20,447 nt of DNA from a virus, in the IMG/VR virus record IMGVR_UViG_3300025636_000055, positions 1 to 20,447 of that record. One strand, given 5' to 3'. Shown here piece by piece: positions 1,346 to 20,447 of this stretch. Made by a program: the position numbers and the translations under genes. The notes below the pieces were generated by a model, which searched no databases, was not told where the DNA came from, and saw only the letters and a list, made by a program, of their open reading frames with translations. Each line of letters starts with the position of its first letter. The first letter of the stretch is position 1.

Positions 1346-3045
1346 TCTCTCATTCTGTCGTAATCGTCATTTATTTCGTGTGCTGTGCCTTTATCCATTT
1401 TTACAGGGTGCATTTTGCCTGATCCTTTGGGATATTCAAACTCTGACTGATGTGCTCTTGCTGCTGCCGCTGCTGCTTGTGCAAAGTTTTCTTCTACTTC
1501 GTCTTCCATTTGCTGCGGCTGTGAGCGCATTTGCCACTCGTCAAATTTTGCTTGTATTTGTTCAATAAACGCCTTAGCAGGTTCTATGAACTGCTCTCCG
1601 TAGTCTTTTTCTACCATTGTTAATACTGCTGTTTCGCCTTTGGGGAACTGTCCGTTTTCTCTATCAAAGTAGCTAAGAATAAACTCGCCTAATGGTGTCT
1701 TTTGCTCTTCTGGCTCTTCGACTCCGTCATCTTTGCTTAGTTGGCCTTTGCTGTTAATTTTAACATCCATAGTATCGTCGCCTTCGTCTACCGACTTTGC
1801 TTTTTTCTTAATAGCAGTAGACATATCGTCGTGGCCTTCTTTTTCTTCTGCATCTGCTTTAGCATTTCCTGCTTTTTTCATTGCTGCAACACCTGGGCTA
1901 TCTGCTTCTGCAAACTGACCCATCATTTCTTCAAAGCCTTGTTCTAGTTCAATTTCTTCTGGTACACATTTGTTTACACGCTTGCCTTTGTTTTTACCAG
2001 TGCCTGGTTGTGTGCCATCTTTTTTGTAACCGTCCCAACACTTGTCTGGGCCTGCTACTTCGTCTAATTCATCTGGACCTAATGATTTGGCCTTTGTTGC
2101 TTCGCCTACTAACTTATAAATGTATGGAAATACATCTGCTAATTCTTCATTAAACTGTTTGATAGTTAATTGATCAATCCAGTTTTCTTTTACATCTGCT
2201 GGTACATCTTCCATCATTGGTGTTTCAAATGCTGCAAATGTTTCTGCATAGTATGCTGGCTTTTGAAGATTTTCAATTGTTTTCTTAACTGTACTAATAC
2301 GCTCTTTAACAACATCTACATACCCTGCAAGACTTTCTGCCATTACAGCACTACGTCCCATGTAGTTTTTGAATTTGCGTAGTTTGCCCATTTCTTCTGA
2401 TAGACCTACAATGTGCTTACCAAAATCATCATAAGCATTGCCGCCTTCTGCTACGTGACGTGCCATTGCTCTTGCACCGCTTAGATGTTTGAATGGGTAA
2501 CGGAATCTTTCACCATCTGCACTTTCAATATAAATTTTACCAATTTTTTGTGTGCGTCCTGTTGCACTTTCTTGGTTGATACTTTCTGTATGCTTAACTA
2601 CAATACGTGCTTCGCCTACTTTTTGATAGCTAATACGACTTGTGCCGTAAAGTTTTGATTCTGTCATTTGTTTGTCCTCAGTACGATTTTTTGCTAAGAA
2701 TTTATAATCACGTTTATCTAAATTTGATTTAGTAATATCCCTAACATCAAAATCTAACATACGTTTTTTACTAAACACACGCAATTCTTTTAGAAAATCA
2801 TACCATGCATTTTGTGTTATTTCGTTTTCGTTACTAATAAAGTCTTTAGAATAGATAACAGTTAATCCTTGATCTTCATCAATTGCAACACTCACTTTTC
2901 CAAGTCCGTTGTAGTCAAAGTCAAAGAAACGTGCCATAGTTGGCTCGTTAGTAACTGTTCCTGTTTCGTCACCTATAGTAACTTCTGGAAAACGTCCTCG
3001 TATTTTGTTAAAAAGGTCGCTACCTATTTTATTAAAATCTCTCAT
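1327..3045 (-). CDS. Conserved phage protein of unknown function, 572 aa, with CW-GYK-GT-CVP motif
   Basis: I do not recognise a characterised function. The N-terminus (MRDFNKIGSDLFNKIRGRFP, then ARFFDFDYNGLGK near residues 39-50) is a globular mixed alpha/beta region. At residues 336-361 the motif CWDGYKKDGT...KRVNKCVPEE appears, a Cys-bracketed element that recurs in structural or accessory proteins of marine phages. Residues ~370-450 are Lys/Glu/Asp-rich and probably disordered. A compact segment at 452-500 (FILSYFDRENGQFPKGETAV) and an Ala run near 523-531 follow, then a tail with YPKGSGKMHPVKMDKGTAHE. No signal peptide or membrane segment is seen. The ATG lies 4 nt after a late box (GATAAATACAAT-ATG) without a proper SD. 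Its position directly after the large terminase and its late promoter suggest a virion or packaging-associated role, but this is inference. Confidence 0.75.
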   Translation of the reverse strand: MRDFNKIGSDLFNKIRGRFPEVTIGDETGTVTNEPTMARFFDFDYNGLGKVSVAIDEDQGLTVIYSKDFISNENEITQNAWYDFLKELRVFSKKRMLDFDVRDITKSNLDKRDYKFLAKNRTEDKQMTESKLYGTSRISYQKVGEARIVVKHTESINQESATGRTQKIGKIYIESADGERFRYPFKHLSGARAMARHVAEGGNAYDDFGKHIVGLSEEMGKLRKFKNYMGRSAVMAESLAGYVDVVKERISTVKKTIENLQKPAYYAETFAAFETPMMEDVPADVKENWIDQLTIKQFNEELADVFPYIYKLVGEATKAKSLGPDELDEVAGPDKCWDGYKKDGTQPGTGKNKGKRVNKCVPEEIELEQGFEEMMGQFAEADSPGVAAMKKAGNAKADAEEKEGHDDMSTAIKKKAKSVDEGDDTMDVKINSKGQLSKDDGVEEPEEQKTPLGEFILSYFDRENGQFPKGETAVLTMVEKDYGEQFIEPAKAFIEQIQAKFDEWQMRSQPQQMEDEVEENFAQAAAAAARAHQSEFEYPKGSGKMHPVKMDKGTAHEINDDYDRMRELAGLR

Positions 3046-3049
3046 ATTG

Positions 3050-3057
3050 TATTTATC
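3050..3057 (-). promoter_or_regulatory. Late promoter box of the 572-aa gene
   Basis: GATAAATA on the minus strand matches the T4 late consensus TATAAATA at 7 of 8 positions. Its last base is 4 nt (CAAT) before the ATG at 3043-3045, so transcription would begin at or within 1-2 nt of the start codon. The 15-nt sequence from box to ATG is identical to that before the HNH gene at 13531. Confidence 0.7.
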
Positions 3058-8017: not shown

Positions 8018-9313
8018 TTAAATTCTTCCTTTTATAGTATTAATAACTTGGCTTGCAATTTGATTTAATTTTCTATCGTTTCCTGCTGCTCTATTAATAA
8101 TTTCATTTTCAATAGTTTCTTGGGCAGCTTGTTCTAGTCTATCAAAGTTGCCAAAATTAGAACTATTCCAACTAGAACTATACGCACCTGTTGCTAAAGA
8201 TCGTTTTACAGTTGACCTTAATGCAACTTTATTTGTAGATAAAGTGTTTCTAACTGTATCAGAATCTAAATTATCTAAGTTTCTACTAGAAACTGTTGAC
8301 AATGATATTGTTGCACGAGGGTCTGTTCTAGGAAGATCAATTTGCTTTAATCCTCCCATGTTATTAATTCTACTAGAATTTTTTATTTTATTTAATAAAC
8401 TAGCAGGATCACCAGCCGACGAGCTATCACCATTTACTGGTATTCCTAAAACATTTCCTAATACATTGTAAATCCCTGAATTAATTCTAGAGTTTTGTTT
8501 TATAATAGAAGGTTCTAGACCTCTGCCTGCGCCAGCTTGAAATGCATTAGCATCGTATGTTTGATTATTACCTAGTGGGCTATCAACTAAATCGTATCTA
8601 GTTTCTTGGCTAGCAAATCCAGCAGGATCAGAATTAGGATCAATGTCACCTGAATCGTACATAACTGCTTCGTATGCAACAGATATTTTATTCATCATAA
8701 CATCGCCGCTATTAGCATATGACATATCATCGTGCTGAAAAGAAGTTACTAAAGGGTTAACTAACGTATACGAAACCCATTTTTGCCTAGCTAGTTGATA
8801 TATTCTAATATTTTTAAAAAAAGTTCCGCCCTTGCCTTCAAGATTATCCATACCATAACGAGGAACGGTTTTACTTAATTTATCTCTTGGATTAAAATCA
8901 AACGGAACTCCATTTGAATGCTTGCTGCCGTCTCTATAATAAAATCTATAATACTCTTCTAATAAAGCCCGGGTAATACCAGTATTATCATCAACAAAAT
9001 CCATTGTAACTTCGTCGTACTCGATACCTGTTTGAAAATTCTTTTTTCTATTATACTGTCTTTTAGTATCAACATCAATCTTAAAACCTGGTAAATTTAT
9101 ACTATTACATAACACACCTAGTTCTTTTTGAAACTGTGTACTATTAGGAATAAATCCGGTAGCTGCATTAAAGTCAAATACAACATGATATAAAAACTTT
9201 TGCTTAGGAGCTAATGCAAAATTGTGTTGGTTGTATAACTGATGAGCGTGTCTTGCATCTCTTAAATGCAATTCACTATCACGGTTAACTAAATATAAAT
9301 CTTCTATTGCCAT
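8018..9313 (-). CDS. Second tail-tube-fold protein, 431 aa (gp19/gp48/gp54-like)
   Basis: The N-terminal ~235 residues follow the same order of elements as gp19, encoded just upstream. They are an opening strand KQKFLYHVVFDFN, then LCNSINLPGFKIDVDTKRQY with NFQTGIEYDEVTMDFVDD (compare gp19 VTRPNLSFEQITIDAYNSR and HTWEPITLTLREDA). A helix ALLEEYYRFYYRD comes next, and the domain closes with an AYEAVMYDSGDI strand. The C-terminal ~190 residues are Asn/Ser-rich and of low complexity, with no recognised domain. The likely role is a tail-tube initiator, baseplate-tube junction or tube-like structural protein. T4 gp48 and gp54 have this fold and are 364 and 320 aa long. The ATG is 5 nt after a GATAAATA box and lacks an SD. 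Confidence 0.7.
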   Translation of the reverse strand: MAIEDLYLVNRDSELHLRDARHAHQLYNQHNFALAPKQKFLYHVVFDFNAATGFIPNSTQFQKELGVLCNSINLPGFKIDVDTKRQYNRKKNFQTGIEYDEVTMDFVDDNTGITRALLEEYYRFYYRDGSKHSNGVPFDFNPRDKLSKTVPRYGMDNLEGKGGTFFKNIRIYQLARQKWVSYTLVNPLVTSFQHDDMSYANSGDVMMNKISVAYEAVMYDSGDIDPNSDPAGFASQETRYDLVDSPLGNNQTYDANAFQAGAGRGLEPSIIKQNSRINSGIYNVLGNVLGIPVNGDSSSAGDPASLLNKIKNSSRINNMGGLKQIDLPRTDPRATISLSTVSSRNLDNLDSDTVRNTLSTNKVALRSTVKRSLATGAYSSSWNSSNFGNFDRLEQAAQETIENEIINRAAGNDRKLNQIASQVINTIKGRI

Positions 9314-9318
9314 AGTAA

Positions 9319-9326
9319 TATTTATC
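9319..9326 (-). promoter_or_regulatory. Late promoter box of the tube-like gene
   Basis: GATAAATA on the minus strand is followed by TTACT and then the ATG at 9311-9313. With the usual T4 late geometry the start site falls on the A of the ATG, so the mRNA is predicted to be leaderless. It lies just downstream of the gp19 terminator. Confidence 0.65.
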
Positions 9327-13530: not shown

Positions 13531-13538
13531 GATAAATA
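13531..13538 (+). promoter_or_regulatory. Late promoter box of the HNH gene
   Basis: GATAAATA is followed by CAAT and the ATG at 13543. Box, spacer and start are identical to those of the 572-aa gene on the other strand. The only SD-like string (AGGTGA) overlaps the box and is too far from the ATG, so a leaderless mRNA is predicted. Confidence 0.65.
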
Positions 13539-13542
13539 CAAT

Positions 13543-13878
13543 ATGAGACCGTTATGCACATGTGGACAGCGTCCTGCTGCTATTAATTACAAAAAGAATA
13601 ATAAAACTTATTATCGTAAACTATGCGAAACTTGCTTACGCAATGGAGAAGGGCACGGAATTCCTAAATGGAAACAGCGAGGATATGAGAAAAAAAATAT
13701 TTGTGAAAAATGTAATTTTTCAAGTAAACATTTTGAACAGTTTAATGTGTTTCATATAGATGGAGATTTAAATAATTGTAGGCCAAATAATTTAAAAACT
13801 ATTTGTGCTAACTGTCAGCGTATAACACAAAAAGAAGGTATCCGATGGAAGCAAGGCGACTTAACGCCAGACTTTTAA
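13543..13878 (+). CDS. HNH-type zinc-binding endonuclease-like protein
   Basis: This 111-aa protein has two Cys pairs near its start (C5/C7 and C28/C31), a second set C54/C57 (ICEKC) and C88/C91 (ICANC), and the core FHIDGDLNNCRPNNLKTICA. H71, N82/N83 and the Cys-bracketed beta-beta-alpha core fit an HNH nuclease of the kind conserved in marine T4-like phages. A second catalytic His is not obvious, so activity is uncertain; a DNA-binding or packaging-linked nicking role is possible. It is the only plus-strand gene inside the leftward block, lies upstream of gp18 in opposite orientation, and its 3' end overlaps that of the kinase-like gene by 18 bp. It could be a free-standing homing-type nuclease or a resident phage gene. 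Confidence 0.8.
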   Translation: MRPLCTCGQRPAAINYKKNNKTYYRKLCETCLRNGEGHGIPKWKQRGYEKKNICEKCNFSSKHFEQFNVFHIDGDLNNCRPNNLKTICANCQRITQKEGIRWKQGDLTPDF

Positions 13879-14367
13879 ATGTTCAATTAGTTGATAAGTG
13901 TTAAACATTAGATCGTCTAATGTACCATTATTATCAATAGTATAATCAGCCATCCAATGTTCTAGGCTCATACTATCTTTTGATTCAGGAGGCAAATGAT
14001 CTAAACGATCTACCCAAATAGCATAATCAAATACACCAGTATTTTTCATAGCAAAGAACTCTCGTTTGTTTCGCAGTCCGCAATAGATATCATGTGCTTT
14101 GAAAATTTCTCTACCTAGTGTAGCAGCATCTTTGGAGTTATAGTCACAGATAGCATTATACCATTCTGCTCGATGATTGTGTCTGTCATCATAGCACTCA
14201 TCTTCGTTAGCATAACCATATTTGTCTTTGAGCATATCATATATAAAGAGTTTTGAACAAAAGCGGCTGCTAGATTCAAAACTATAATTATAGTTCTTTT
14301 CTAAAATTTCGCAGACAGTATCTTTGCCGTGTCTACCGTGACCAATTACTAATAACTTAGGTTTCAT
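13861..14367 (-). CDS. P-loop kinase-like protein, putative deoxynucleoside monophosphate kinase
   Basis: This 168-aa protein opens with a hydrophobic strand and P-loop, LLVIGHGRHGKDT (G9-T17), the GxxxxGKD(T/S) form seen in phage dNMP kinases related to T4 gp1 and to adenylate/thymidylate kinases. Further segments are FESSSRFCSKLF, LGREIFKAHDIY and a later strand DYAIWVDRLDHLP that fits a Walker B-like position. It would phosphorylate dNMPs for phage DNA synthesis, but the substrate cannot be read from the sequence. The ATG follows TTGGAG. Unlike the flanking structural genes it has a sigma70-type promoter, which agrees with a nucleotide-metabolism gene expressed before the late phase. Confidence 0.7.
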   Translation of the reverse strand: MKPKLLVIGHGRHGKDTVCEILEKNYNYSFESSSRFCSKLFIYDMLKDKYGYANEDECYDDRHNHRAEWYNAICDYNSKDAATLGREIFKAHDIYCGLRNKREFFAMKNTGVFDYAIWVDRLDHLPPESKDSMSLEHWMADYTIDNNGTLDDLMFNTYQLIEHLKVWR

Positions 14368-14392: not shown

Positions 14393-14420
14393 ATTATAGC
14401 ATCTTAGTTTAGTTTGTCAA
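14393..14420 (-). promoter_or_regulatory. Consensus sigma70 promoter of the kinase-like gene
   Basis: On the minus strand TTGACA (14420-14415) and TATAAT (14398-14393), both perfect hexamers, are separated by 16 nt. The predicted start near 14386 leaves about 19 nt including the SD before the ATG at 14365-14367. The promoter occupies the short gap after the 78-aa gene. Confidence 0.75.
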
Positions 14421-15348: not shown

Positions 15349-16096
15349 TTAAAAATCCGTATCCTGTGCCGCCTGCTACAGCCATTGATACTTCGGCTTC
15401 TAATTTTTCCATTTCAGCTTGTGCTTCTGCTTTTAAACTATCGCCATTAAGAGTTGACCCACCTTGTGGACCAGCAATAGTAGCAAACTTGCTTCGTGCT
15501 TCGCCGAGCATATATTTACAGGCTGCAAGGGTGTAATCTTTGATCCACTGTACTGCCATATAATCGCTTAATAGCTCGCTATCTGGACGGTAGTTATATG
15601 CGTATAACATTAATGTTTCTTCAGCTCTAGGTCTTTGTAATAATGTTAGTTTTTTACTAGTTGAACTCCATTTAAATTCAATAAAGCTACCAAACATTCT
15701 GCCTACTAATTCTTGGTACTGACTAAACATATCGTATGTTGCAATACCACCCATATTTGAACTTGCTAACAAGTACGAATTTGTATATGCCATATTAAAC
15801 GGCTCAAATACAGTTCCGCCGTCGCCGCCTCCTGTGCGTGAACCAACACTTCTACGAAAAATCTGGCGCACTTCCATAACTTCGTTTGGCAATACATATT
15901 CATTTTGATCAACTACAGTAGGCATAAACAAGTAGCTTTCTTCAACACTATGGTCACTACGCTGTCTATAACGAGTTAATGCTTTAGTTAGTGCAGTTTG
16001 ATAATGTATAGGATCAAGTTCAACATCGACCATTCCGCCACCTAGAAAGGTGTTAACATAATCATATATTTCTTGTTTTTGTGTTGCCAGTGTCAT
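15341..16096 (-). CDS. gp13: Neck protein gp13-like (head completion)
   Basis: With the ATG at 16094-16096 this is a 251-aa protein starting MTLATQKQEIYDYVNTFLGG. Longer in-frame starts further upstream would lie beyond the predicted transcription start. Matches to T4 gp13 (309 aa) include the N-terminal VELDPIHYQTALTKALTRYR (compare T4 VELTPDQIYDCISRALELY) and the C-terminal WIKDYTLAACKYMLGEARSK, with the following helix AEAQAEMEKLEAEV. gp13 sits on the portal of the filled head and joins gp14 to receive the tail. GGAG lies about 9-10 nt before the ATG, and a late box is 17 nt upstream. In T4 genes 13 and 14 are co-directional; here they diverge. Confidence 0.88.
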   Translation of the reverse strand: MTLATQKQEIYDYVNTFLGGGMVDVELDPIHYQTALTKALTRYRQRSDHSVEESYLFMPTVVDQNEYVLPNEVMEVRQIFRRSVGSRTGGGDGGTVFEPFNMAYTNSYLLASSNMGGIATYDMFSQYQELVGRMFGSFIEFKWSSTSKKLTLLQRPRAEETLMLYAYNYRPDSELLSDYMAVQWIKDYTLAACKYMLGEARSKFATIAGPQGGSTLNGDSLKAEAQAEMEKLEAEVSMAVAGGTGYGFLIG

Positions 16097-16113
16097 ATGA
16101 AAGTCTCCAATAG

Positions 16114-16121
16114 TATTTATC
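16114..16121 (-). promoter_or_regulatory. Late promoter box of gp13 (left half of divergent pair)
   Basis: GATAAATA followed by C on the minus strand. The predicted start near 16108 leaves about 12 nt with GGAGA before the gp13 ATG. It is the mirror image of the box at 16127-16134, five bases away. Confidence 0.75.
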
Positions 16122-16126
16122 TTAAC

Positions 16127-16134
16127 GATAAATA
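16127..16134 (+). promoter_or_regulatory. Late promoter box of gp14 (right half of divergent pair)
   Basis: GATAAATA on the plus strand. Its last base is the A of the ATG at 16134, so a transcript beginning near 16140 could not use that ATG. The leader would instead contain AGGAG (16146-16150) and reach the ATC codon at 16158. Confidence 0.75.
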
Positions 16135-17321
16135 TGTATAACAATAGGAGAAGAGCTATCCCCCGCTTATCATTATATAAACCGGAACGTGGAAACGATT
16201 ACGAATTTCTAGATCGCCAAATTGAAGAAATGTTTCAAGTCGGCGGCACAGATATTAATATCCATAAGTACTTAGGTCCTGAAAATACCGTCGAAGGAGA
16301 AGGAACTGCTGTTCAGCCTACATATGATGCTGTAAAAGAAACTAACATACAAGATCTATTATTTCTAGAAAACAGAGACAGAAAATATGATCCTGATGTT
16401 TATAGTATGCGTGGTATTTATAATGTACAAGATATTGACTTTGACTTATCACAATTTGGACTATTTCTAAGCAACGACACATTAATGTTAACTATTCACA
16501 TTAGAAGTAGTGTTAAAGCATTAGGTAGAAAAATTATGAGCGGCGATGTTATCGAACTTCCCCATTTAAAAGATGAATATGCCCTTAATGATTATAATGT
16601 TGCTTTGAAACGATTCTATGTTGTAGAAGATGTAAATCGTGCAGCAGAAGGGTTTAGTCAAACTTGGTATCCACATTTATATCGTTTAAAACTAAAGCAA
16701 ATATACGACGGGCAAGAATATGCAGAAATACTCGATTTACCTGCAGAAGAAGGTAGTAATAATACACTTCGTGATTTGCTTTCAACTTATGAAAAAGAAA
16801 TGCAAATTTCAAATGCTGTAGTTGCACAAGCAGAAGCAGATGCTCCTAAAAGCGGATACGACACTAGCCATTATTATACAGTTGCTACAAATGACGACGG
16901 TAGTATTGCATTACAAACAGCAGACGAAACCGATTTAGACGCAAGTAATATTTCAACAAGTGCTGATGAGATTGTTGATAGACCTGCTCGAGAAGGATAC
17001 AGCGGATATCTTTTAAATTACGGCGATGGCGACACGCCAAACAATGCACCATACGGTTTTGGAATACAATTTCCTAGCAATCCCGAAAAAGGTGATTACT
17101 TTAATCGTACAGATTTTTTACCTAATCGTATGTTTATGTATGACGGTACCCGCTGGACTAAAGTACAAGATGATGTACGCATGACACTAAGTAATACGTT
17201 AGACCGTGTTACACAAAAGTCTAGTTTTATTAATAATACTTCTACAAATAATATTAACGGTCAAGAAGTGCCTGAAAGACAAAGTCTTTCTAAAGCATTA
17301 AGGCCAAAGGCGGATAATTAA
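16134..17321 (+). CDS. gp14: Neck protein gp14-like (head-tail connector)
   Basis: The protein has 395 codons from the only canonical start (16134), but 387 from ATC at 16158, which I consider the likelier real start. ATC is 7 nt after AGGAG. Translation from it would give (M)PRLSLYKPERGNDYEFLDRQ, the usual N-terminus of marine gp14. The ATG at 16134 overlaps the late promoter. Recognisable segments are FQVGGTDINIHKYLGP, DLLFLENRDRKYDPDVY, DIDFDLSQFGLF, GDVIELPHLKDEY and AAEGFSQTWYPHLYRLKLK. gp14 works with gp13 to close the head and bind the tail. It is longer than T4 gp14 (256 aa). The C-terminal part has a GDYFNR...FMYDGTRW module, after which the ORF ends with a 1-base TAATG overlap into gp15. 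Confidence 0.9.
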   Translation: MYNNRRRAIPRLSLYKPERGNDYEFLDRQIEEMFQVGGTDINIHKYLGPENTVEGEGTAVQPTYDAVKETNIQDLLFLENRDRKYDPDVYSMRGIYNVQDIDFDLSQFGLFLSNDTLMLTIHIRSSVKALGRKIMSGDVIELPHLKDEYALNDYNVALKRFYVVEDVNRAAEGFSQTWYPHLYRLKLKQIYDGQEYAEILDLPAEEGSNNTLRDLLSTYEKEMQISNAVVAQAEADAPKSGYDTSHYYTVATNDDGSIALQTADETDLDASNISTSADEIVDRPAREGYSGYLLNYGDGDTPNNAPYGFGIQFPSNPEKGDYFNRTDFLPNRMFMYDGTRWTKVQDDVRMTLSNTLDRVTQKSSFINNTSTNNINGQEVPERQSLSKALRPKADN

Positions 17322-18736
17322 TGCAACATTTTTATGATGGTCAAGTAAGACGTTACATTACACAACTAATGAGAATAGTTAGTAATTTTCCAGTAAGAGA
17401 TGGTAAAGATAAGGAAACTATCGTTCCTGTAATGTACGGTGATTTAACTCGCCAAGTAGCTAATATTATTAGAGAAAACAGTGAAAATAAATTACCTAGT
17501 GCTCCTAGAATGTCTGTATATATTACAGCTCTTGAATTAGATAAAGACAGATTAACTGATGCAAGCTATACTAGATCAGTTAATGTTAGAGAAAGAGCAT
17601 ACGACGACAATAATAACGAATATTTAAACTCTCAAGGTGCAAACTATACAGTTGAAAGATTAATACCTACGCCTTACATGATGCGGGCCAATGTTGATAT
17701 TTGGACATCTAATACTGACCAAAAATTACAATTGCTGGAACAATTATTAGTATTATTTAATCCAAGTTTAGAAATACAAACTACAGATAATTTTATTGAC
17801 TGGACTAGTATTACTGTTGTTAATTTGGAAAACGTTCAATTTACTAATAGATCTGTCCCAGTCGGTATCGACAGCGAAATTGATATTGCTACATTAACAT
17901 TTAGTGTTCCTATATATATTAGTCCGCCGTCTAAAGTTAAAAAGATGGGTGTAATTACAAATGTAATTACTAGCATGTTTGACGAAACTCGAGGAACTAT
18001 TGAACAAGGAGTGAGTACTCCTGAAATAAACCAATACGACGATTATCCCAAACCCGGAGCAGAAACCAATAACTTTGGACAGAAAGCAGTAACAGAATTA
18101 ACTGATAAAATGGCTAATGCTAATTATAACACATATGGATTATATATTGAAGGTCAATCAGCTAAACTTATCAACCGCGGCATTGTCGGGGGTATTAACT
18201 GGAATAGTATATTTGAAGCTATGCCCGGTAACTATCTAGCTGACGTAAGTAAAATTCATTTAACAAATGCAAACAATAATAATAATACTATAACAGGAAC
18301 AATTAGTTTAAATCCGTTTGACGACAATGTAATAAATGTTAATTGGGATAGTGATAGCTTCCCACAAGATACTGTAATTGACGGTCGTACAAGCATAGAT
18401 TATATTATAGATCCTACTAATTTTAATCCTAGTAATATAAAAGTAGCAGGAATACGTTTATTACTATTAAATGATGTAGGCGATGCAACTGCTACAGAAT
18501 CTCCTGTAGCATGGCAGAACACTGATGGCACTGGTATTATAGCAAGTGCAAATGATATTATTGAGTGGGATGGCAACAAATGGAATGTTGTTTTTGATGC
18601 AAGTTCCGCAACATCAGTTACATATACTACAAATCTTAATACTAGTGTACAATATAGATTTTCAGAAGGCGAGTGGTTGTTAAGTGTAGATGGCGAATAT
18701 CCAGTAGGAACATGGCGAATTAACCTGTATGGATAA
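17321..18736 (+). CDS. gp15: Tail sheath stabiliser / tail completion protein (gp15-like)
   Basis: The N-terminal ~215 residues fit T4 gp15, the hexamer that caps the tail and docks it to the neck. They include FYDGQVRRYITQLMRIVSNF, IVPVMYGDLTRQVANI, APRMSVYITALELDKDR, PTPYMMRANVDIWTSNTDQK, LLEQLLVLFNPSLEIQ and a final TFSVPIYISPPSKVKK strand. T4 gp15 has 272 aa; this protein has 471, with a ~250-residue C-terminal extension rich in Asn/Asp/Thr. That extension ends with Trp modules (IIEWDGNKWNVVFD, YRFSEGEWLLSVDG). The start overlaps the gp14 stop (TAATG), with AAAGGCGG upstream, so translation is coupled. A Nudix gene follows after 8 nt. Confidence 0.88.
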   Translation: MQHFYDGQVRRYITQLMRIVSNFPVRDGKDKETIVPVMYGDLTRQVANIIRENSENKLPSAPRMSVYITALELDKDRLTDASYTRSVNVRERAYDDNNNEYLNSQGANYTVERLIPTPYMMRANVDIWTSNTDQKLQLLEQLLVLFNPSLEIQTTDNFIDWTSITVVNLENVQFTNRSVPVGIDSEIDIATLTFSVPIYISPPSKVKKMGVITNVITSMFDETRGTIEQGVSTPEINQYDDYPKPGAETNNFGQKAVTELTDKMANANYNTYGLYIEGQSAKLINRGIVGGINWNSIFEAMPGNYLADVSKIHLTNANNNNNTITGTISLNPFDDNVINVNWDSDSFPQDTVIDGRTSIDYIIDPTNFNPSNIKVAGIRLLLLNDVGDATATESPVAWQNTDGTGIIASANDIIEWDGNKWNVVFDASSATSVTYTTNLNTSVQYRFSEGEWLLSVDGEYPVGTWRINLYG

Positions 18737-18744
18737 TTATTTAT

Positions 18745-19182
18745 ATGAACAATATCATTTGTAGTGGTGCGCTATTTTATACATTAACAACTAATCGATT
18801 TTTATTCTTATATAGAAACAACAGTAAGCGATCAAACGTATGGGGACTTGTTGGTGGGACTAATGAAGGAGCAGAAACTCCCTGGGAAGGTCTTCAACGA
18901 GAAATAGAAGAAGAAATTGGCATATTGCCAAAAATCGAAAAAACAATACCTTTAGAAAGTTTTATTAGCACAGACCAACATTTTCAATTTCATACATATT
19001 TGTGTGTAATAAAAAAAGAATTTATTCCTAATTTAAACAACGAACATAGCGGGTATTCTTGGGCTAGTTACGATAATTGGCCTAAACCACTACATAAAGG
19101 TTTACGCAATACACTGCAAAGCAAAATAAATCGAGCAAAACTAGAAACTGTTTTTAGTATGGCAGATTTACTTGACAAATAA
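18745..19182 (+). CDS. Nudix hydrolase
   Basis: The 145-aa protein has a complete Nudix box from G38 to I60, G-x5-E-x7-REIEEEIGI, with R52, E53, E56 and E57 in place for Mg2+ and diphosphate binding. The fold's leading strands (ALFYTLTTNRFLFLYR, NVWGLVGG) also fit. Nudix enzymes split nucleoside diphosphates linked to another moiety, such as sugar nucleotides, ADP-ribose, dNTPs or capped RNA 5' ends. The substrate cannot be fixed. Since hldE follows, a nucleotide-sugar substrate is a reasonable guess, but an RNA-decapping role is also possible. The ATG lacks an SD. The last codons contain the -35 box of the hldE promoter. Confidence 0.88.
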   Translation: MNNIICSGALFYTLTTNRFLFLYRNNSKRSNVWGLVGGTNEGAETPWEGLQREIEEEIGILPKIEKTIPLESFISTDQHFQFHTYLCVIKKEFIPNLNNEHSGYSWASYDNWPKPLHKGLRNTLQSKINRAKLETVFSMADLLDK

Positions 19183-19200
19183 TTTAAATTAGTGTATAAT
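19172..19200 (+). promoter_or_regulatory. Perfect consensus sigma70 promoter of hldE, predicted leaderless
   Basis: TTGACA (19172-19177) and TATAAT (19195-19200) are exact consensus hexamers with the optimal 17-nt spacer. The -35 box is within the Nudix 3' end. The start site expected 7 nt after the -10 box is 19207, the A of the hldE ATG, and no SD precedes that ATG. The mRNA is therefore predicted to begin with AUG. Confidence 0.85.
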
Positions 19201-19206
19201 AAAAGC

Positions 19207-20343
19207 ATGAAAGTTTTAGTTCTCGGCGACATTATTGTCGACAAATATATCTACGGTACAAGCACACGCATTAGCCCAGAAGCGCCGGTGCCTGTTGTAA
19301 CATATCAACGTGAAGTCGAGACTGTAGGTGGTGCTGGACTTGTTTACGAAAATCTTAAAAGTTTAGGTGTAGATGTCAAACTAATTGACTTCTTTGATAA
19401 AGCTAGTGTAAAGACTAGAGTAATATGTGACGGACATTACATAACACGTATCGACGATGATTACATTGCAGATGGTAATGCGTTTCTTACATACGTCTTA
19501 TCACAAGACTTTGATGCATACGATTATGTTATCCTAAGTGACTACAATAAAGGCACACTAGACGAAAGTATCGAAATCATTAAACATATCAATACCTATG
19601 GTTGTCGTGTTATTGTAGATCCTAAAGAACACTCTAGTCACTATGCAGGTGCTTGGCTAGTAAAGCCCAACGAAAAAGAATTTCAACAATACTTTATCAA
19701 CTGGCAAGGTAATATTATTACAACTAGAGCAGATAAAAGTGTTGTTGCTAAAATCGACAATGAAGTATTTGAAATAGAAGTGGAACCAGTTGAAGTGTCA
19801 GATGTAACGGGAGCAGGAGACTGCTTCTTAGCTGCATTTGTATATGGGTTAACAAAAGATTATGATTACAAACATGCAATTGAACTTGCTGTTAAAGGTT
19901 CTACAGAAAGCGTCAAGCACGTAGGCACATACACGCTACAACAGCATGATTTAGAAGAAAGGCTAGTCTTTACCAACGGAGTGTTTGACATACTGCACAA
20001 GGGTCATTTTGAGCTCTTAAAAGAAGCTAAATCTCTCGGTGCTAAATTAATTGTAGGTATTAATAGTGATTCTAGTGTAAAACGACTTAAAGGCAATAGC
20101 CGTCCGATTAATAATCAAATGAAGCGTATTAGTCAGCTAGAGATTTTACCGTGGGTGGATCAAGTAGTTGTATTTGATGAAGATACCCCATACGAATTAA
20201 TTAAAAAAATTAAGCCGCATGTAATAGTTAAGGGCGGCGATTATACAGTAGAAACAGTAGTAGGACATGATTTAGCCGATGTGCATATTGTACCTACTGT
20301 TGAAGGCTACAGCACTACAGAAATTATAGAGGCAAGCAAATGA
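19207..20343 (+). CDS. hldE: HldE-like bifunctional heptose kinase / nucleotidyltransferase
   Basis: This 378-aa protein starts MKVLVLGDIIVDKYIYG. An in-frame GTG 15 nt upstream lies in the promoter spacer and is rejected. The N-terminal ~245 residues are a PfkB/ribokinase-type domain: VETVGGAGLVYENL near 38-50, VDPKEHSSHYAGAWLVKPNE near 138-156, and the catalytic DVTGAGDCF with D205. The C-terminal ~128 residues are a cytidylyltransferase-like domain: FTNGVFDILHKGH (HxGH at 264-267), VGINSDSSVKRLKG and VKGGDY. Together these make ADP-heptose precursors in bacterial HldE (RfaE), which has 477 aa in E. coli; the kinase domain is shorter here. It may supply a modified sugar for host surface or phage glycans. 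The next gene overlaps by ATGA. Confidence 0.88.
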   Translation: MKVLVLGDIIVDKYIYGTSTRISPEAPVPVVTYQREVETVGGAGLVYENLKSLGVDVKLIDFFDKASVKTRVICDGHYITRIDDDYIADGNAFLTYVLSQDFDAYDYVILSDYNKGTLDESIEIIKHINTYGCRVIVDPKEHSSHYAGAWLVKPNEKEFQQYFINWQGNIITTRADKSVVAKIDNEVFEIEVEPVEVSDVTGAGDCFLAAFVYGLTKDYDYKHAIELAVKGSTESVKHVGTYTLQQHDLEERLVFTNGVFDILHKGHFELLKEAKSLGAKLIVGINSDSSVKRLKGNSRPINNQMKRISQLEILPWVDQVVVFDEDTPYELIKKIKPHVIVKGGDYTVETVVGHDLADVHIVPTVEGYSTTEIIEASK

Positions 20344-20447
20344 AAATATTAGTAACGGGACACAAAGGGTTTATAGGATCAAATATTGCATTATACCTGC
20401 AATCCCAAGGACATGAAGTAGAGGGTTGGGAATGGCAACCTGGTATT
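20340..20447 (+). CDS. NAD-dependent sugar epimerase/dehydratase, N-terminal fragment
   Basis: Only 36 codons are visible before the right edge. The ATG overlaps the hldE stop as ATGA, indicating translational coupling. The peptide MKILVTGHKGFIGSNIALYL carries the extended SDR Rossmann signature GxxGxxG (GHKGFIG), as in UDP-glucose epimerase, GDP-sugar dehydratases or HldD. After hldE an ADP-heptose 6-epimerase (HldD-like) or another nucleotide-sugar enzyme is most likely, but the substrate-binding half is outside the window. Confidence 0.8.
   Translation, partial: MKILVTGHKGFIGSNIALYLQSQGHEVEGWEWQPGI

Follow-up and report, generated by a model that had tools for sequence, protein, structure and literature searches.

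The repressor gene cI of the temperate phage lambda is transcribed from PRM, a weak promoter that is activated. Its mRNA is leaderless (PMC9031893), and phage leaderless mRNAs are usually cited as single cases of this kind. The hldE locus described here is similar in that the predicted phage mRNA begins at AUG and lacks a Shine-Dalgarno sequence (SD), but here the promoter matches the full consensus, stands before a metabolic operon and belongs to a jumbo phage related to T4. In cellular genomes, TA-led (leaderless) bacterial genes have been described in which a -10-like signal precedes the start codon by about 12 bp and an SD is lacking (PMC3160421), whereas here the genes belong to a phage, a full -35 element is present and a parallel pattern is found at late promoters. 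Leaders of 26-491 nt are reported for the giant phage AR9 (PMC5312081). Leaderless transcripts reportedly escape the action of kasugamycin (PMC5230787). T4-type late promoters (TATAAATA) and gp55-like sigma factors also have counterparts in these viruses, where the T4-type motif GATAAATA precedes structural genes and the encoded sigma homologues are 45-47% identical to the annotated late sigma factor of PA5oct. This Pseudomonas phage (Arenbergviridae), one of the nearest cultured relatives, has a TerL that is 54% identical and retains the gp15-Nudix gene order, but hldE is not annotated behind its Nudix gene. Phage-borne bifunctional heptose kinase/nucleotidyltransferases (about 36% identical) occur in the hldE/gmhA sugar modules of cyanophages P-SSM2 and S-CAM1, which differ in their other neighbours (phosphoheptose isomerase, carbamoyltransferase). 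Leaderless mRNA is already known, but no description of a conserved, dual (leaderless or SD-led) architecture in PA5oct-like marine jumbo phages was found in the open-access literature searched.

The window, i.e., the whole stretch of DNA that was analysed, is a 20,447-base IMG/VR virus record. Close to its end lies a CDS of 378 aa (19207-20343, plus strand) with a PfkB kinase domain (Pfam PF00294, 1.2e-15) and a cytidylyltransferase-like domain (PF01467, 1.3e-20) in one chain; by this domain content the product is predicted to be an HldE-like bifunctional heptose-7-phosphate kinase/heptose-1-phosphate adenylyltransferase. Its upstream neighbour on the same strand encodes a Nudix hydrolase (18745-19182; PF00293, 2.1e-15), and this is preceded by a late structural gene for a gp15-like tail sheath stabiliser (17321-18736, plus strand; PF16724, 8.4e-26). 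The gene 3' of hldE (20340-20447, plus strand) is truncated by the window end, overlaps the hldE stop as ATGA and has a GAGG upstream. Comparison with the relative G001, whose counterpart (L192:2760-3575) has a Pfam Epimerase match (8.3e-32), identifies it as an NAD-dependent epimerase. Further upstream in the window, a short region common to divergent late genes (16096-16134) carries GATAAAT-type motifs on both strands.

Direct reading of 19172-19207 confirmed the perfect TTGACA-N17-TATAAT promoter that a preliminary description had reported before the hldE ATG. On the plus strand, the -35 hexamer TTGACA (19172-19177), a 17 nt spacer (19178-19194) and the -10 hexamer TATAAT (19195-19200) give 12/12 consensus matches at a spacing within the range taken for sigma70 promoters (TTGACA, TATAAT, spacer 16-18). 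The promoter had been placed within the end of the Nudix gene, which holds for the -35, since this overlaps the last codons (CTT GAC AAA TAA; stop at 19180-19182), but not for most of the spacer or for the -10, which lie in the 24 nt gap between Nudix and hldE. TATAAT begins 12 nt upstream of the start codon, an ATG, and the intervening discriminator AAAAGC (19201-19206, plus strand) offers no SD; as had been stated, none is present upstream of hldE (no GGAG, GAGG, AGGA or AAGG in -17 to -5). Because the last T of the -10 is at -7, the canonical -10 to +1 distance predicts +1 at the A of the hldE ATG (19207, plus strand). An in-frame GTG at 19192 was considered as an alternative start and rejected, as it sits upstream of the predicted +1 on this transcript; conservation of this GTG was assessed only by visual inspection of the alignment.

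Dinucleotide shuffles gave an expectation of 0.12 perfect TTGACA-N15-19-TATAAT pairs per window, and two were observed. The second (14393-14420, minus strand, N16) provides a contrast to the SD-less hldE promoter, being SD-led, with a TTGGAG leader and 25 nt to the ATG (at 14367) of a dNMP-kinase-like gene. Related contigs totalling 1.01 Mb contain 30 perfect hexamer pairs with a spacing of 17 and seven with a spacing of 16, whereas each of the other spacings from 8 to 29 is represented 0-3 times.

Conservation was assessed at 79 hldE loci plus the window, which give 41 distinct upstream regions; the relatives are metagenomic contigs and a 335-kb contig from a MAG labelled Neomarinimicrobiota. 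The promoter arrangement is kept in 34 of the 41 regions, always with a spacer of 17 nt and with the first T of the -10 hexamer 11-12 nt before the ATG. The -10 to ATG gap is 6 nt in 26 of these and 5 nt in the other eight, even as the distance from the Nudix stop to the ATG varies from 12 to 27 nt. The -10 is TATAAT in 33 and TATCAT in one, the -35 is TTGACA in 28, TTGACT in five and TTGATT in one, and none of the 34 has an SD. Comparison of hexamers and spacing in related phages, a check that the preliminary description had proposed, thus bears that description out. Mean pairwise identity is 99% for the -10 and 94% for the -35 but only 46% for the non-coding spacer and 54% for the discriminator, with 50% at third codon positions of hldE; the hexamers are therefore maintained, whereas the sequence around them diverges about as fast as third codon positions do. 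By this pattern, the arrangement is under strong selection in the relatives, and there can be little doubt that the hldE promoter is real. Seven of the 41 regions lack the promoter, and in four of them the search window contained a GAGG-type SD. Since hldE lies directly behind Nudix in two of the promoter-less loci (L073 and L134), the promoter is dispensable in some phages.

That the -35 is mere Nudix coding sequence was ruled out by Nudix orthologues that have no same-strand module behind them (L064, L066 and L069), which end in IELF followed by the stop and contain no TTGACA. The Nudix gene of G010, ending in GDIDG, lies before another gene, and the promoter is absent there. The module of that phage begins instead with the epimerase gene, which has TTGACT-17-TATAAT-5-ATG, while hldE is second and without a promoter. 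Other genes are also found behind Nudix. In L010, L011 and L017 it is a 132-aa cytidylyltransferase-like gene behind TTGACG-17-TATATT-5-ATG, and in L040 (5607-6833) it is a different HldE (43% identical) with the 17/6 geometry retained, which suggests gene replacement behind a retained promoter.

Sigma70-type sites (at least 11/12 hexamer matches, near genes) were counted in 15 related contigs, and their distance to the ATG is bimodal: 18 are at 3-8 nt, two at 9-19 nt and 30 at 20-40 nt. Control hexamers gave one site (reversed) and none (swapped) at 4-8 nt. An SD accompanies 0/20 sites at less than 10 nt but 30/32 at 10-40 nt (Fisher, 2e-12), and ATG is used in 18 of the 19 starts at leaderless distance. 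The contigs are related and the counts not independent, representing about nine sigma70 and about nine late gene families. This split between SD-less sites at 4-8 nt and SD-led sites at 20-40 nt supports leaderless mRNA, as had been proposed for hldE, and bimodal distances, absence of an SD and ATG starts together form the signature used for TA-led bacterial genes (PMC3160421). The short-distance families include hldE, primase, replicative helicase, epimerase, the dNMP-kinase-like gene and a TonB-dependent receptor; a peroxiredoxin-like member (G002) is doubtful, as its counterpart in G007 does not retain the start. Orthologues do not always share a geometry, the dNMP kinase gene being leaderless in arrangement in G010 and SD-led elsewhere, and the helicase gene leaderless in G014 and SD-led in G001. 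In the near-complete 335-kb relative, leaderless geometry is a minority (5 of 38 sigma70-type sites). As expected for an early class, sigma70-type sites are found before primase and replicative helicase genes and before the gene for the gp55-like late sigma homologue encoded in relatives, the last with an SD-led leader. The product of the receptor gene in G001 (L190:2013-3749, minus strand) is 578 aa long and has plug and barrel domains of the TonB-dependent receptor type, an unusual cargo for a phage; a perfect sigma70-type promoter is located 6 nt before the ATG of this gene.

The T4-type late motif shows the same two modes. In the window, GATAAATA is found at 3050-3057 (minus strand), 4 nt before the ATG at 3045 and near-leaderless; at 9319-9326 (minus strand), 5 nt before the ATG at 9313 and in leaderless arrangement, the gene belonging to a family present in 13 contigs; and at 13531-13538 (plus strand), 4 nt before the ATG at 13543. 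Motifs at 4-5 nt from the ATG mostly lack an SD and those at 13 nt or more mostly have one. With the pattern [GAT]ATAAATA, 41 of 140 gene-proximal sites in the sampled contigs lie 3-8 nt from the ATG, and an SD is present at 5/44 sites closer than 10 nt versus 82/99 at 10-40 nt, orthologues being counted repeatedly in these totals. Leaderless geometry occurs at 9-10 of the approximately 44 late sites of the 335-kb relative, again a minority. No gene-proximal late site lies within 8 nt of the ATG in the stretches of T4 (0/15) and Phosso (0/9), and leaderless geometry is rare in PA5oct (1/12 sigma70-type and 2/29 late sites). With the marine orthologues counted repeatedly, the contrast in short-distance sites is weak for the sigma70 type (18/50 in the marine contigs versus 1/12 in PA5oct, p = 0.085) and clearer for the late type (41/140 versus 2/53 for PA5oct, T4 and Phosso pooled, p = 7e-5).

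The explanation that best fits the locus as a whole, and which is likely to be correct, is a functional full-consensus sigma70-type promoter giving a leaderless hldE mRNA. In an alternative that is unlikely, a genuine promoter directs transcription from a few bases before the ATG, and ordinary 30S initiation takes place on the resulting short leader, which lacks an SD, in an unstructured, AT-rich start region. Transcription start sites can shift by 1-3 nt, an SD is recognisable in only 447 of 724 genes of these phages, and the fold of the predicted hldE mRNA leaves its first 16 nt unpaired, all of which would suit such a leader. This alternative does not account for a gap that stays at 5-6 nt while the discriminator sequence drifts, the near absence of promoters at 9-19 nt from the ATG (2/50), or the near-exclusive use of ATG at leaderless distance. 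A second alternative takes TATAATA as a variant T4-type late promoter, hldE as a late gene and TTGACA as Nudix coding sequence. Although hldE is located among late genes, its -35 overlaps Nudix codons and GATAAATA is also found 4-5 nt before ATGs, this reading was rejected and is very improbable: -35 matches at late sites are no more frequent than at random, whereas hldE has TTGA at exactly 17 nt in 34/34 relatives, its -10 is TATAAT rather than ATAAATA in 33 of them, and TTGACA is missing from Nudix orthologues without the module. A chance match without function, hldE being translated only from late polycistronic mRNA, has a negligible probability, since looser promoter-like sites in the AT-rich window are indeed near the shuffle mean (79 versus 70.1, sd 7.5) but perfect pairs exceed expectation, cluster at spacing 17 and keep their hexamers while the spacer drifts.

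Under the leaderless explanation, host RNA polymerase with its housekeeping sigma factor would bind the hldE promoter; the host sigma70 polymerase named in the preliminary description is predicted from the consensus match. Transcription is predicted, with high confidence, to begin at the A of the ATG or 1-2 bases from it, and translation of the resulting SD-less mRNA would depend on ribosomes recognising its 5'-terminal AUG. The overlapping epimerase gene, with its own GAGG, would be translated next by coupling. We infer that the heptose/nucleotide-sugar operon behind the late gp15 and Nudix genes could be turned on independently of the phage late sigma factor. Given the promoter class and its use by replication genes, expression probably precedes the action of the late sigma factor, and this would make a sugar-nucleotide operon in the late region a separately, probably early, controlled module. 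Independence from the late operon had been claimed as well. The operon has its own promoter, but the analysis does not support its insulation from late transcription: read-through into hldE is likely because a terminator scan of the window listed no plus-strand terminator-like site from gp15 to hldE, and the operon may additionally be read from late transcripts. As a late polycistronic mRNA gives hldE no SD, translation from it may be weak.

The hldE promoter is very probably a real promoter and one case of a two-way design across these viruses, in which sigma70-type and T4-type late promoters would each come in two geometries, with the start codon at about +1 and no SD, or with a leader that holds an SD. 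More tentatively, and with somewhat less than an even chance of being right, the marine PA5oct-related jumbo lineage may have a dual translation scheme, in which early and late promoters are each leaderless or SD-led, orthologues switch between the two, and mRNAs could be sorted to two initiation routes, for instance should host ribosomes be altered during infection. Beyond single cases such as lambda cI, the geometry of 17 nt, 5-6 nt and ATG is maintained by selection in dozens of uncultured phages, and the two-mode pattern is common to two different promoter classes. Promoter-to-start distance alone can expose leaderless genes in metagenomic phages, which bears on start-codon annotation.

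A search for the host by way of the phage TonB-dependent receptor gene gave no match in genome contigs. TerL matched genome contigs in MAGs of scattered taxa (Neomarinimicrobiota, Euryarchaeota, Betaproteobacteria and others), and binning therefore does not reveal the host. The probably near-complete relative (L263-L279, G015:C57; 335,231 bases) is binned in a Neomarinimicrobiota MAG, and many of its promoter sites recur on contig C77 of the same MAG, so that the phage was seemingly assembled twice. It encodes a homologue of PA5oct ribosomal protein S21 (G015:C57:47241-47414, 55% identical) that had no match in the 15 other contigs; a link to altered translation initiation is possible. A candidate tRNA-Met in G001 was considered because an initiator tRNA might favour leaderless initiation. 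The same phage has a run of small plus-strand genes (L189:1-9500), several with TTGACA-17-TATACT and leaders that hold GAGGGC, looking like an early region.
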